From: Slackia sp. ZJ119 | GTDB taxonomy: Bacteria > Actinomycetota > Coriobacteriia > Coriobacteriales > Eggerthellaceae | Length of the DNA: 64,000 bases | Reading direction: 5' to 3' | Assembly: GCF_011039175.1 (NCBI RefSeq) | Contig: NZ_JAAKEN010000017.1 | Span: forward strand, 1 to 64,000 | Shown here: piece by piece, positions 1,833-7,379 of the stretch | Layout of the letters: every line of letters begins with the position of its first letter | How positions within the stretch are numbered: the stretch's first letter is position 1 | Notes under the pieces: generated by a model | The model's database searches: none | Told to the model about the DNA's origin: nothing | What the model saw: only the letters and a program-made list of their open reading frames with translations | Program-made: the position numbers and the translations under genes

Positions 1833-3392
1833 CTAGAACTGGAAATAGATGAACGGATTGTACGAGCTGGACGCCACCGACATGCACGACAGCACGAACA
1901 CGGCGAACAAGGCCACGTCGACGGCCGCGTTGACGGCAGACGCCACGCGAGCGCGGGCCGGCGTCGCGGCCGGGCGCGACAGCGTGACCTGGCACGGCGG
2001 CACGGCCTCGTTGCCCTTCTGGGGCGCCGCGACGATTTCCCGGTGCGGATCGCCTTCCGCCCACGCTTCCAGCTTCTTGCGCAGCCACGGCGCCCACGGC
2101 AGCGACCCTATGACCATGACGGGGATGAGGCTCACGTAGCTCCACGACTGCAGCTCCCACACCGTCGAGGCGCCCGAGAACCCGTACGCGCCGAACATCG
2201 CGCAGAACCACTCGAGCACGTTGTGCAGGCCCGTGACCGCGAACAGCAGCCACCCGAAGAAGAACAGCACGATGCACCACACGTGGGACACGAAGCGCGG
2301 CAGGCGCTTCAGCGCCCGCATGATGAAGAACTTTTCCAGCAAAATGAGGACGCCCCAGTACAGGCCCCACAAAAGGAAGTTCCACGCCGCGCCGTGCCAG
2401 ATGCCGGTCAAAGCCCACACGATCATGGTGTTGGCCACGAAGCGCGGCGTCTTCACGCGGTTGCCGCCAAGCGGGATGTAGACGTAGTCGCGGAAGAAGC
2501 CGCCCAGGCTCATGTGCCAGCGCCGCCAAAACTCGGTGGCCGAGGTGGACGTGTAGGGGTAGTTGAAGTTGCGCGGGTAGTCGAAGCCCATCATCTTGCC
2601 CAGGCCGATGGCCATATCGGAATACCCGGAAAAGTCGAAGTAGATCTGGAACGTGTACGCCGCCACGCCCGAAAAGCAGCCGACGAACCCGATGTCCGCC
2701 GCGCTGCGCGGCAGCAACGAGTCGGCCAACATGCCGGCCGTGTTGGCGAGCAGCACCTTTTTGCCCAGGCCGACGCAGAACAGCCGCAGGCCCTGCGCGA
2801 AGCCGGCAAGCGTGGCGCGGCGATGGTCGATCTCGTGCTCGATGTCGGCATAGCGCACGATGGGACCGGCCACCAGCTGGGGAAACATGGCGATGTACAT
2901 GCCCAGGTACAGCGGGTTTTTCTGCACCTTCACCTCGCCGCGGTACACGTCGACCACGTAGGTGATGGCCTGCAGCGTGAAAAACGAGATGCCGATGGGC
3001 AAGGCGAGCTGCAAGTCGGCGATGAACTGCTCGCCGAGCGCCGCATTGACGTTCCGCGCGAGAAAGCCCTCGTACTTGTAGAACCCGAGCACCAGCAGGT
3101 TCGCTGCCAGCGCCAGCGCCAGCAGCAGCTTGCGCGGCCACGGACGAGCGTCAGACTTCGAAGCGTGCGATCCGCCGCCCGCCCCGAACCGGTCCATCAT
3201 GAGGGCAAAAGCCCAGTTCGCAACGATGGAACCGACCATCAGCCACACATACACCGGCTCGCCCCACGCATAGAACAAAAGCGAGAACGCCAGCAGCACG
3301 ACGTTTTTGACCGACCGCCACGGCACGGCGAAGTAGACGGCCAAAAACAGCGGCAGAAACGCGAAGAGGAATATCGTGCTGGAGAAAACCAC
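1833..3392 (-). CDS. MBOAT-family membrane O-acyltransferase (AlgI/DltB-like)
   Basis: This is a 519-residue polytopic membrane protein. It begins with the typical hydrophobic VFSSTIFLFAFLPLFL, contains the family stretch YVYIPLGGNR, and carries the catalytic-His region WHGAAWNFLLWG near residue 330. MBOAT proteins of this type pass acyl groups, usually acetyl, across the membrane to a cell-surface polymer. The immediately following DHHW gene is its usual partner. The start is a GTG with AAGGAG seven bases upstream. Known AlgI relatives have a similar length. The substrate could be a capsule, teichoic-acid-like polymer or peptidoglycan; the sequence does not say which. Confidence 0.88.
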   Translation of the reverse strand: MVFSSTIFLFAFLPLFLAVYFAVPWRSVKNVVLLAFSLLFYAWGEPVYVWLMVGSIVANWAFALMMDRFGAGGGSHASKSDARPWPRKLLLALALAANLLVLGFYKYEGFLARNVNAALGEQFIADLQLALPIGISFFTLQAITYVVDVYRGEVKVQKNPLYLGMYIAMFPQLVAGPIVRYADIEHEIDHRRATLAGFAQGLRLFCVGLGKKVLLANTAGMLADSLLPRSAADIGFVGCFSGVAAYTFQIYFDFSGYSDMAIGLGKMMGFDYPRNFNYPYTSTSATEFWRRWHMSLGGFFRDYVYIPLGGNRVKTPRFVANTMIVWALTGIWHGAAWNFLLWGLYWGVLILLEKFFIMRALKRLPRFVSHVWCIVLFFFGWLLFAVTGLHNVLEWFCAMFGAYGFSGASTVWELQSWSYVSLIPVMVIGSLPWAPWLRKKLEAWAEGDPHREIVAAPQKGNEAVPPCQVTLSRPAATPARARVASAVNAAVDVALFAVFVLSCMSVASSSYNPFIYFQF

Positions 3393-3512
3393 CTGGGTGC
3401 TCCTTGGTTCGTACAGCCTTTCGAAACGGCACCGCGGGCTTCGCTGCGCTGCGGCAGCATGCCCGCAAAGACGCCAACGCGATATTGTACGGCAACAGGA
3501 CGCCGCAGCAAA

Positions 3513-3580
3513 GATTCAGCGGCGTGAAGTTCGAGCCGTTTTGCTTGAAGGGCGGGCCAGGGAAAGCCCAGGCGGCGGGC
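3513..3580. repeat. copy A of the rnr 3'-end repeat (left junction of the ATPase cassette)
   Basis: Positions 3539-3580 match 5195-5237 with one single-base length difference in an A-run. A weaker match extends to the GATTCA at 3513 and 5166. Read on the minus strand with the missing base restored, this copy encodes the last residues of RNase R followed by TGA (ending SSKTARTSRR). It is therefore a diverged duplicate of the rnr terminus, lying 1.65 kb from the functional one. Confidence 0.85.
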
Positions 3581-3668
3581 TCTTGAAGGAGCGCAGGCAA
3601 AGGTCCGCTCATCCACTCGCGCATGCAGCTGTTCACGCGGCTTGTGCCTGCGGCATCCTCGCCGCCTA

Positions 3669-5048
3669 TCAGCCCCAGTCGAAATCTTCCTCGTCAAGCA
3701 CCAGTCCGGACAAACCGTCGCCTTGCTCTTCTTCAAGGCAGAACGCCATATAAAGAGGCAGGTAATAGACCGGCTTGCCTTCGCGTTCGCCGCGAGACAC
3801 ATTGGCCTCGAAAAGCACATAGGCAAAGGGGATGTTGTAGTCGCAGGTGCCAAGCATGTTGTTAAGCGCAGTATGCAGCTTGTAGTCCTTGCCCGACTTC
3901 ACTTCAATCGGAACGACGAAGCCCTCATGGGTTTCTATAAGGAAGTCAACCTCCCCTTTGCGATTATTATTATAGTAATATAAGGGAAAAGAAGCGCAGG
4001 CAAGCGTTTCCGCGACGACGTTCTCGTAAATCGCTCCGAAGTTCCCATCGCCTTGGCCCAAAATGATGTTCCGTGAAGCGGCCAGAGGATACTGTGAAAG
4101 GAGTATGCCGCAATCGAGCGAGTACAGCTTGAATTTGGACATGTTCCTCGTTCGCATGAGCGGCGCTTTCGGCTCGGAGACCACATGCGCCTGCAAAGCC
4201 ACGCCGACCTTCACAAGCCAGTCGAATTCGTTTTCAACCTTGTCGAACGTCATGCCCGATCTGAGGGAATTGAGCACAAAACGCTTGTTCACTTTCGCAA
4301 GCTGGCTGGGAATGCCGTCGAAAATCGAGAGGATCTGCATTTTCTTCTCTTGCGAGTATTTGATTATGTCGTAGCGGTACTGTTCGACGATCTCGCTGTT
4401 TATTCGGCGTGGCTCGCCAAGGTCTTTGCGATGGTCCAAGAACGCTTGCACCGCCTCCGGCATGCCGCCTACCACGATGTATTGTCGAAAGATGCGAAGA
4501 AGCCGCTCATGGAGCGCATCTGCAAGGGGCTGCTTGTTTCTATAGCTTTCTTTGACCGTTTCAAGAACGGAATCAGGCACCCCCAAAGCCCAGCAGAACT
4601 CTTCAAAATCAAGAGGATGCATGCGCTCTATCCGGGCATAGCCTACAGGAAACGAAGCGACGCCTTCAAGCGCAGTCCCCAAAAGAGATCCCGAAAGGAC
4701 AAGGTCGAACCTTCCATCGTCAAGCAAGAACTTCGAGAGCGTAACCACATTGTGCCCAAGATGCTGCACCTCATCGAAAAAGACCAGCGTTCCCGGCTCT
4801 ATGCCATGCCCAACGATAAGCGACAAGCGGCTGACGAGTTCTTGAGAGCTTTTCGCATCGGCGAGAAACGTTCCGTTCTCCTCGTCTTCAAGAAAGTTCA
4901 CCTCGATGAATGTTCTGTAATGCTCTTGGGCGAACGCGCGAACAATGAAAGTCTTGCCTGTCTGACGCGCCCCCAGCAAAAGAAAAACCTTGCGAGAAGG
5001 GGCCGATTTCCAATTCTCAAGACGCTCGTACATTTTTCTTGCCAGCAT
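3669..5048 (-). CDS. AAA-family ATPase with C-terminal DUF4143 domain
   Basis: This 459-residue protein has Walker A GARQTGKT (26-33), Walker B LVFFDEVQ (88-95) and a C-terminal DUF4143 region with GEVDFLIET and PIEVKSGK (about 364-386), reminiscent of PD-(D/E)xK folds. This architecture is widespread in accessory regions of bacteria and archaea; no biochemical role is firmly established. The ATG is preceded by GGGAG. The gene is visibly AT-richer than its neighbours, with AT-only runs near 3965, and is flanked by two copies of the rnr 3' end (3513-3580, 5166-5237), both signs of horizontal acquisition. Three similar repeats lie in its upstream region. No integrase or partner gene accompanies it. 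Confidence 0.88.
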   Translation of the reverse strand: MLARKMYERLENWKSAPSRKVFLLLGARQTGKTFIVRAFAQEHYRTFIEVNFLEDEENGTFLADAKSSQELVSRLSLIVGHGIEPGTLVFFDEVQHLGHNVVTLSKFLLDDGRFDLVLSGSLLGTALEGVASFPVGYARIERMHPLDFEEFCWALGVPDSVLETVKESYRNKQPLADALHERLLRIFRQYIVVGGMPEAVQAFLDHRKDLGEPRRINSEIVEQYRYDIIKYSQEKKMQILSIFDGIPSQLAKVNKRFVLNSLRSGMTFDKVENEFDWLVKVGVALQAHVVSEPKAPLMRTRNMSKFKLYSLDCGILLSQYPLAASRNIILGQGDGNFGAIYENVVAETLACASFPLYYYNNNRKGEVDFLIETHEGFVVPIEVKSGKDYKLHTALNNMLGTCDYNIPFAYVLFEANVSRGEREGKPVYYLPLYMAFCLEEEQGDGLSGLVLDEEDFDWG

Positions 5049-5064
5049 GGTCTCTCCCAGAAAT

Positions 5065-5143
5065 CGATTAAAACAGAAAGAATTCTACCTGATTTACAAT
5101 TAGTACAGAAAGAAATGTGCCGCTTTTGGCAATTAGTACAGAA
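5065..5143 (-). promoter_or_regulatory. three iterons upstream of the ATPase gene
   Basis: Minus-strand motifs TTCTGTACTAATTG (5130-5143), TTCTGTACTAATTG (5097-5110) and TTCTGTTTTAATCG (5065-5078) are spaced 33 and 32 bases apart, about three helical turns. They occupy the 100 bases before the start codon, where the promoter must be. Regularly phased repeats suggest an operator. The protein that would bind is unknown. Confidence 0.55.
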
Positions 5144-5165
5144 CCGGCAGCACAATGCCGATGCA

Positions 5166-5237
5166 GATTCACCTGCGAGAATTCAATCGACCCTTTTTGC
5201 TTGAAGGGCGGGCCAGGGAAAAGCCCAGGCGGCGGGC
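5166..5237. repeat. copy B of the rnr 3'-end repeat (functional rnr terminus)
   Basis: This segment contains the last codons and the TGA of rnr and is repeated in diverged form at 3513-3580. The near-identical core is 5195-5237 (43 nt, starting TTTTGCTTGAAGGGCGGGCC). The arrangement resembles attachment sites made when an element integrates into the 3' end of a gene and restores its reading frame. Confidence 0.85.
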
Positions 5238-7379
5238 GGCGGGGTCGGCGGATTCGAGCACGACGGCGATGCGCTGGCCCAGGCGGTACGCCTTGCCGGT
5301 CGCTTCTCCGGTGAGCATGAGACTGCGCGGGTCGAAGGCGAAGCGTTCGCGGCCGAGCAGGCGCGTCGGCAAAAAGCCCTCGGCCGTGCAGTCGAGGCGC
5401 ACGAACAGGCCGCGCTCGGTCACGCCGGACACGATGGCGGAAAACGCCGAACCTACCGAATCGGCCAGCAGTTCGACCATCTTCGTTTCCTGGGACTGGC
5501 GGGCGGCCTCTTCGGCGCGGCGCTCGGTGCGCGAGCAGTGCGCCGCAAGCTCCGCCAGATCGCGCTGCTTCTTCTTCGCCCGCTTGCCCGTCGCCCGAAC
5601 GCCCGCGCCGCCGGCCTGCGCACGGAGCCGCTCTTTCAGCAGCCGATGCACCACAAGGTCGGGGTAGCGCCTGATCGGCGACGTGAAGTGGGTGTAGGCG
5701 GCGCTTGCCAGGCCAAAGTGGCCCTCGCAGGCGTCCCGATAGTCGGCCCGCTGCATGGCCCGCAGAAGCAGCATGTTCACAAGCTCCCCTTCGGGCCGGC
5801 CTTCCGCGGCGGCCAGCACCGCCTGCAGCGCGTACGGATTGCCGGCGGCAAAAGCGTCCTGGTCGATGTCCGCAAACCAGGAAAATTCCCCGAACACGCA
5901 GGCCAGATCCTGCAAACGCCCCGGATCGGGGGCGGCATGCACCCGGTAGACGCCCGCACCGCCGCCCTGCGCCAGACACGTCGCCACGGCCTCGTTCGCC
6001 GCGATCATCGCTTCTTCCACAAGCGACGTGGCATCGGTCTTTTCGCGCACTTCGATGGCGACCGGGCGCTTGCGCTCGTCCAAGCGCACCTTCGCTTCCG
6101 GAGTGTCGAACGGCACCCCGCCGAGGGCCTGCCGCCGCGCGATGCGTGCTTGCGCCAGCTCATGCAGCGCCGCCAGGCTCGCCCGCAGGCGGGCCTCGTC
6201 GGCAGGCGGCGCGACGGCTGCAAGCGGGCCTTCGCCGGCCGCCGCGTCCGCATCGCCCGCCGTCTCTTCGGCGTGAGCGCCGCCCCCGTCGCTCGCAAGC
6301 AGCTTCTGCGCCTGGTCGTAGGTCAGACGCGCCGCCGATCGAATGACCGCCGGATACGCCCGAAACGCCGCGCATTCCGCCGCGTCGTCCAAATACAGGT
6401 CCACGTGCAGCACCCGCCGGTCCTGCCCCGGCACGAGCGAGCACACCCCGTTGCTCAGGCGCTCCGGCAGCATCGGCAGCACCCGGTCGACAAGATACGT
6501 GCTGGTCCCCCGCTCTCGCGCGTCGCGGTCGAGTGCGCTGCCTTCCGGCACGTACGCCGACACGTCCGCGATGGACACGCCCAGCCGCCACCGGACCTCC
6601 CGCGCCGCTCGTTCGGGCCGCAGCAGCACCGCGCCGGCCAGGTCCCAGCCGCCGTCAGGACGCTCGTCGATCGACAGCGCGTCGTCGAAGTCCCGCGCGT
6701 CAGCAGGATCCACCGTGAAGACGAGCCGCTCCCGCAAATCGGCCGCGCCGCTCTCAAGCGCCTCTTCGATGCCCACGTCGACCGCTTCCGCCTCGGCCAG
6801 CGCCTCGGGCGAAAACGAGACCGGCAGCCCCTGGCGCACGATGATCGACTCGATGGCCAGCGTCTCTTCGTCGACGCCGCCCACCACCTCGGCAACCACG
6901 CCGGTGGCGGCGCTGCGGCGCGTGGGATACTCCAACATGGTCACGCGCACCAGGTCGCCGTCACGTGCGGGCACGCCTTCGCCCAGCCGGGTGAACACGT
7001 CGTAGGGAATGGACGGGTCGAGCGGCACCACGACGCCGAAGGGCTCGGCAACCTCGTAGCGCCCGACGAGGTCGGCATGCGCCCGCACGAGCACCCGCGC
7101 CACCTGCGCCACCGGGCGCTCGTCGGCGCGGCGCCCCTCGTGACGCAGGCGCGACGGGTTGCGCTTCTCGAATCGCACCGACAGCTCCACCTCGTCGCCG
7201 TCCATGGCCCCGTTCGCGGCCTTTGCCGGCACGTAGAACTCGCCTTCCGGGGTTTTCACGAAGCCGAACCCGCGCGGCGTCGCTTCGAACACGCCCCGGG
7301 GCCGCGCCGTGTTGCGCGAGCGCGTCGTCTGCTTTCCCCGGCCGTGTCCGCGGCCGCCGCCCCGCTTCTGTCGGCCCAC
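5169..7379 (-). CDS. rnr: ribonuclease R (RNB-domain 3'-5' exoribonuclease)
   Basis: This 736-residue enzyme degrades structured RNA 3'-5' in the cytoplasm. A basic Gly-rich N-terminus precedes a cold-shock/OB region (about 28-75). The RNB catalytic domain (about 215-565) has the metal-binding run DPADARDFDDALSID and the later TSPIRRYPDLVVHR. An S1 domain (about 640-725) ends the protein. An Ala/Asp/Gly/Pro-rich insertion at residues 363-395 is not part of the core fold. The GTG start lies one base after the ctpA stop, so translation is probably coupled. The final codons lie within a sequence repeated 1.65 kb downstream, suggesting that the 3' end served as an integration site. Confidence 0.93.
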   Translation of the reverse strand: MGRQKRGGGRGHGRGKQTTRSRNTARPRGVFEATPRGFGFVKTPEGEFYVPAKAANGAMDGDEVELSVRFEKRNPSRLRHEGRRADERPVAQVARVLVRAHADLVGRYEVAEPFGVVVPLDPSIPYDVFTRLGEGVPARDGDLVRVTMLEYPTRRSAATGVVAEVVGGVDEETLAIESIIVRQGLPVSFSPEALAEAEAVDVGIEEALESGAADLRERLVFTVDPADARDFDDALSIDERPDGGWDLAGAVLLRPERAAREVRWRLGVSIADVSAYVPEGSALDRDARERGTSTYLVDRVLPMLPERLSNGVCSLVPGQDRRVLHVDLYLDDAAECAAFRAYPAVIRSAARLTYDQAQKLLASDGGGAHAEETAGDADAAAGEGPLAAVAPPADEARLRASLAALHELAQARIARRQALGGVPFDTPEAKVRLDERKRPVAIEVREKTDATSLVEEAMIAANEAVATCLAQGGGAGVYRVHAAPDPGRLQDLACVFGEFSWFADIDQDAFAAGNPYALQAVLAAAEGRPEGELVNMLLLRAMQRADYRDACEGHFGLASAAYTHFTSPIRRYPDLVVHRLLKERLRAQAGGAGVRATGKRAKKKQRDLAELAAHCSRTERRAEEAARQSQETKMVELLADSVGSAFSAIVSGVTERGLFVRLDCTAEGFLPTRLLGRERFAFDPRSLMLTGEATGKAYRLGQRIAVVLESADPAARRLGFSLARPSSKKGRLNSRR

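Follow-up and report, generated by a model that had tools for sequence, protein, structure and literature searches.

In Slackia sp. ZJ119, a single ATPase gene lies between two copies of the 3' end of rnr. The displaced copy carries the native tail, the copy in use carries a foreign, homologous tail, and a genome of the same genus has the site free of any insert. With a probability of about 0.55, we read this locus as a single-gene accessory islet that was acquired by one-sided homologous recombination (homology-facilitated illegitimate recombination, or 3' displacement) and has the ATPase as its cargo. This type of event is already known; the part worth following is an array of direct repeats upstream of the ATPase gene.

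The two rnr 3' ends and the insert-free congener

The window, i.e., the whole stretch of DNA that was analysed, comprises 64,000 nt (contig NZ_JAAKEN010000017.1, positions 1 to 64,000). The features of the locus are listed in Table 1. The ATPase was the only gene found inside the insert in the list of open reading frames and by Pfam, no integrase being present, and the GC content between the repeat copies is 52-55%, compared to 62-72% in the surrounding DNA. This confirmed the lone, AT-richer AAA/DUF4143 gene that had first been noted; both Pfam models (AAA_14 and DUF4143) matched above their cut-offs.

Table 1. Features of the rnr-ATPase-MBOAT locus in the window
Feature	Position	Strand	Evidence or remark
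rnr (RNase R-like, 736 aa)	5169..7379	-	ORF; Pfam RNB, CSD2, OB_RNB, S1
Proximal (right) copy of the repeated rnr core, 43 nt	5195..5237	-	
Replacement rnr tail, with the TGA and the next 24 nt	5145..5194	-	Diverged from the native tail, homologous to it
Direct repeats upstream of the ATPase gene, period 32-33 bp	5065..5143	-	5130-5143 and 5097-5110 exact; 5065-5078 degenerate
AAA_14-DUF4143 ATPase with probable PD-(D/E)XK-like C-terminal part, 459 aa	3669..5048	-	PADLOC candidate PDC-S01
Spacer from ATPase stop to distal core, 88 nt	3581..3668	-	No relative found among the loci compared
Distal (displaced, left) copy of the rnr core, 42 nt	3539..3580	-	One base deleted
Displaced native rnr tail	3490..3538	-	Old TGA at 3516-3518; collinear with the congener
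MBOAT O-acyltransferase gene	1833..3392	-	Native downstream neighbour of rnr

Alignment of the copies confirmed that there are two rnr 3' ends whose cores, 42 and 43 nt long, differ by one base in length. The single difference is an A missing from a stretch of four (98% identity; E 1.5e-13), and genome-wide the core occurs at these two sites only. The similarity between the copies extends beyond the core at both sites, over 93 and 91 nt at 81% identity, the tails outside the core being about 70% alike over 50 nt. This likeness is above chance, since it was reached in 0/2000 shuffles and in 8e-4 of random windows from the 64-kb window. As had been claimed, the diverged outer parts still encode RNase R-like tails that run into a TGA, with SSKKGRLNSRR before the stop on the right and, in the rnr frame past the indel, SSKTARTSRR on the left. 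The C terminus of the rnr product as read is ...LARPSSKKGRLNSRR followed by the stop, its final codons coming from the replacement tail. On the ATPase side, the rnr-like similarity ends one base short of the first repeat upstream of the ATPase gene. In five other elements, the corresponding region beyond the core showed weak similarity at most (p 0.03-0.76), indicating that the rnr homology arrived with the insert of the window.

The rnr-MBOAT interval was then compared with that of the congener (G002; the genome of the window is G000), whose rnr product is 94% identical. There, one rnr 3' end is joined straight to the MBOAT gene and the ATPase is absent, which is the empty site that had been predicted for a relative. 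The two genomes are collinear, with an identity of about 95% towards rnr and about 80% towards MBOAT. The rnr tail of the congener reads SSKKGKTVRALRR before the stop, and this tail with the DNA after the stop scored 52 against the distal (left) copy and 23 against the proximal (right) one. The left copy is thus the displaced native end, and the tail of the right copy arrived with the insert, in agreement with the proposal that an insertion at the 3' end of rnr had brought a replacement terminus. A precise deletion in the congener by recombination between the repeats would look just like a site that was never inserted.

A donor-like parallel and the proposed origin

The same anatomy was observed at the 3' end of a band-7-like gene (the names band-7, trxB and ABC-F are presumptive, assigned by eye from the sequences). 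For this gene a donor-state locus, with host gene and cargo adjacent and without flanking repeat, is present in G006 (L232): the band-7-like gene ends in the tail VPDAPGGEGASAK and is followed by upstream repeats and an ATPase gene. In G097, the site is empty and the tail reads VEGGAEKAARDGHQA before the stop. In G099 (L218), a genome from the genus of G097, the gene body is G097-like up to the core; past the core, the tail, the repeats and the ATPase are G006-like (about 91%), and after the ATPase the displaced core, tail and flank are again G097-like (468/511). This trio of donor-like, empty and hybrid loci gives the pattern of homologous recombination on one side and homology-free joining on the other. 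Foreign homologous material on the anchored side, together with a displaced native remnant, is present in both the window and L218, and the hybrid anatomy of L218 recurs in the window, the donor of which was not seen. The history of L218 is not simple: the stretch from the ATPase to the displaced gene end also contains part of a second DUF4143-like gene, a C-terminal fragment at 4293-4689.

For the window, we infer the donor, since no donor genome with rnr followed by the window's ATPase was found, as well as the sequence of the steps and the way in which the ends were joined. The donor DNA would have consisted of an rnr 3' end, then the repeats, then the ATPase gene. A crossover with the resident rnr would have taken place inside the conserved 42-nt core, so that rnr acquired the last codons of the donor. 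The other end, shortly past the ATPase stop, would have been joined within the resident rnr 3' end by a homology-free join about 42 nt upstream of the crossover, by which the core was duplicated and the old tail pushed downstream. Besides the unseen donor, the additional gene fragment in L218 and the possible loss from the congener, one finding speaks against this origin. Over the loci with flanking repeats, the distal copy starts a median of 88 nt past the cargo stop (KS against uniform, 1e-7), and this end (the right one, read along the cargo) is therefore tighter than random joining predicts.

Displacement of a 3' end is known from Vibrio type VI secretion loci (PMC5361080). In the T6SS effector/immunity arrays and Rhs loci described there, as in the window, one-sided homology at a gene lets material be added while the old 3' part is displaced; in the window, however, the gene brought in lies downstream of its host gene and is unrelated to it, and the host gene exchanged no more than its last codons. 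Gain of accessory genes by such insertion is an ordinary route in bacteria, and the flanks described here provide a clear and checkable case of single accessory genes settling at the 3' ends of housekeeping genes.

If a 1.66-kb circle with an rnr 3' end of its own had integrated, by a site-specific or a Campbell-type event, it would equally have left a core repeat at both ends, a replacement tail and a clean empty site, and the drive could have come from a recombinase in trans or from host recombination between short repeats. Like the insert, elements of the tyrosine-integrase type that restore gene 3' ends are bounded on both sides by the core and supply a replacement terminus. In contrast to such elements, the insert has no integrase, a single gene as cargo and no core in common with other elements, the flanking repeats being different at every site and 25 to about 300 bp long. 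An integrase-driven element should recur at the same target with the same core, and no other rnr insert was found in relatives. A circle would further need a second copy from which to form, and the donor-like locus in G006 has none. A precedent exists in the H47 genomic island of E. coli, a small unit that lacks a recombinase and was demonstrated to excise between short direct repeats (PMC5426353). On balance we regard the circle as unlikely. One-sided recombination requires neither a present nor a decayed integrase.

Less probable still is a target-site duplication made by an unknown insertion process, with the proximal tail diverging later. Three of the DUF4143 loci (L081, L102 and L141) do resemble plain duplications of gene ends. 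Against this, identity in the window drops from 98% in the core to about 70% in the tail, where the proximal copy, the coding one, is unlike the native sequence.

Flanking repeats at DUF4143 and other accessory genes

Flanking direct repeats were counted at a score of at least 40, and single-gene accessory genes of the same bacterial family (Fic and Abi_2) served as controls. Repeats flanked 29 of 172 DUF4143 genes but only 6 of 388 ordinary open reading frames from the same loci (p ~6e-11). A self-mobile DUF4143 element was at first favoured because this rate was 11 times that around neighbouring open reading frames. The candidate was dropped once the control genes gave an equal rate: 19/94 Fic and Abi_2 genes had flanking repeats (p 4e-10 against ordinary open reading frames), i.e., 20% compared to 17% for DUF4143 (p 0.51). 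Flanking duplication thus marks single accessory genes generally and not the mobility of DUF4143 genes, and the footprint, which had been expected to be informative about DUF4143, is that of the acquisition of single accessory genes. As a caution, flanking repeats are no sign of self-mobility, since an accessory-gene control cancelled a signal of p ~6e-11.

A general mark of this kind agrees with findings in E. coli, S. aureus and S. pyogenes, where direct repeats flank 10-18% of the variable segments and empty alleles are also frequent (PMC2884548). The repeats of those segments are mostly shorter than 30 bp, whereas those found here reach about 300 bp and are often gene 3' ends or terminators. 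Among the Fic and Abi_2 loci, a gene 3' end is duplicated with its stop or a terminator in L336, L347, L401 and L416. In these four and in L362, the second copy begins 0-10 nt past the cargo stop. Neighbouring genes showed no orientation bias. Intergenic repeat families were considered as a general cause of flanking repeats; they explain those of L070, L079, L080, L084, L199 and L215, which were left out of the anatomy statistics. Separately, the window and the G000 loci L080, L084 and L086 contain a dispersed, hairpin-rich intergenic repeat family (GAAGCCGCCACGGCG...) with many copies in the genome.

The idea of a mobile ATPase that targets rnr found no support at other loci. No DUF4143 gene was found within 1.5 kb of other rnr loci (40 relatives, 35 of them matching), so that the proposed search for inserts at rnr 3' ends yielded no second case, and the closest relatives of the window ATPase (64-70% identical) sit at other genes. 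DUF4143 genes were observed at trxB 3' ends in three Bifidobacterium species, the sites in B. ramosum and B. panos being empty, at the 3' end of an ABC-F gene in Bacteroidales and at the band-7-like gene in G099 and G006. Carriage by phages or plasmids was rejected, as DUF4143 genes are rare there (60 of 72,556 plasmid records and 12 unannotated phage records). A clean empty site was also sought among plasmids, and none was found.

We also weighed whether the ATPase-nuclease could move its own gene, as a single-gene transposon whose insertion produces long target duplications and whose ends are the upstream repeats. Such a transposon would suit a compact unit made of repeats and one gene, the conserved nuclease residues, several clean empty sites and the patchy distribution in the genus, where G000 has 15 DUF4143 genes and G002 has 3, with a clear ortholog for only one. 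This reading is very unlikely, given that the flanking repeats are no commoner than at Fic and Abi_2 genes, the length of the duplication varies, the upstream repeats stand at one end only and DUF4143 genes are rare in plasmids and phages. A tandem duplication that arose locally at the rnr end, named beforehand as a possible refutation, and was followed by capture of the ATPase gene, or else an assembly error, is scarcely credible, because the right tail is foreign and neither duplicates the native tail nor matches it by chance, the empty site is collinear and unrelated genomes show the same anatomy.

The cargo ATPase and its upstream repeats

The ATPase matched the PADLOC model PDC-S01 over its full length (E 4.9e-171). 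In an alignment of 48 relatives, G31K32, D92E93, E342, E366, E382 and K384 are invariant and D368 is conserved in at least 90%; this set corresponds to Walker A, Walker B and the E/D...ExK residues of a PD-(D/E)XK nuclease. An alignment-based structure model (pLDDT 91) had its best matches in archaeal MNS/STAND-type ATPases, over residues 1-321 (2qen, Z 17.0, rmsd 4.4, 267 aligned; 2fna, Z 16.2). Judging from the predicted fold and the conserved residues, we regard the protein as a probable STAND-like ATPase that carries a PD-(D/E)XK nuclease part; the assignment of the C-terminal part draws on these residues and on the published description (PMC12988326). PDC-S01 is reported to be the fourth most common defence across prokaryotes, and experimental validation is pending for most PDCs (PMC12988326).

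In the window, two exact direct repeats (CAATTAGTACAGAA) and a degenerate third precede the gene (Table 1). Counting repeats with a 32- or 33-bp spacing in the 160 nt before the start codon, we found them at 118 of 184 AAA_14-DUF4143 genes, compared to 4/351 distant ordinary open reading frames (2e-64) and to none of the 94 Fic and Abi_2 genes (1e-30). The arrays occur in Actinomycetota, Bacteroidota, Bacillota and archaea, contain 2-7 copies and end a median of 34 nt ahead of the start codon. They are a trait of the subfamilies of the window ATPase and its nearest paralogues and not of DUF4143 genes as a whole. The cargo of the window is a member of PDC-S01 by sequence, whereas 32-33 bp upstream repeats are absent from the descriptions of PDC-S01 that we found, and a literature search found no published description of them.

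The similarity of the repeat motifs tracks that of the proteins, rising from 0.53 at low identity to 0.92 above 80% (observed rho 0.17; permutation maximum 0.10), and five arrays in G000 are mutually as different as unrelated arrays. The simplest reading of these data would be that each protein binds its own array. We tentatively propose, at somewhat less than even odds, that the repeats are candidate cognate sites of each gene's own ATPase-nuclease. If true, a very common candidate defence gene would be marked by private iterons of its own, which could serve self-control or the discrimination of self from non-self. The array is the more useful by-product of this analysis, as PDC-S01 has no validated mechanism, and with gene-specific sites adjoining the gene its DNA specificity becomes directly testable.

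Two further observations concern the same genus. In G002, two upstream repeats persist at about 2077-2106 of L296 where the ATPase of the corresponding G000 locus (L086, 3727-5469) is absent, like a solo remnant. In L083 (G000:C7:1-12500), three different DUF4143 genes adjoin one another.
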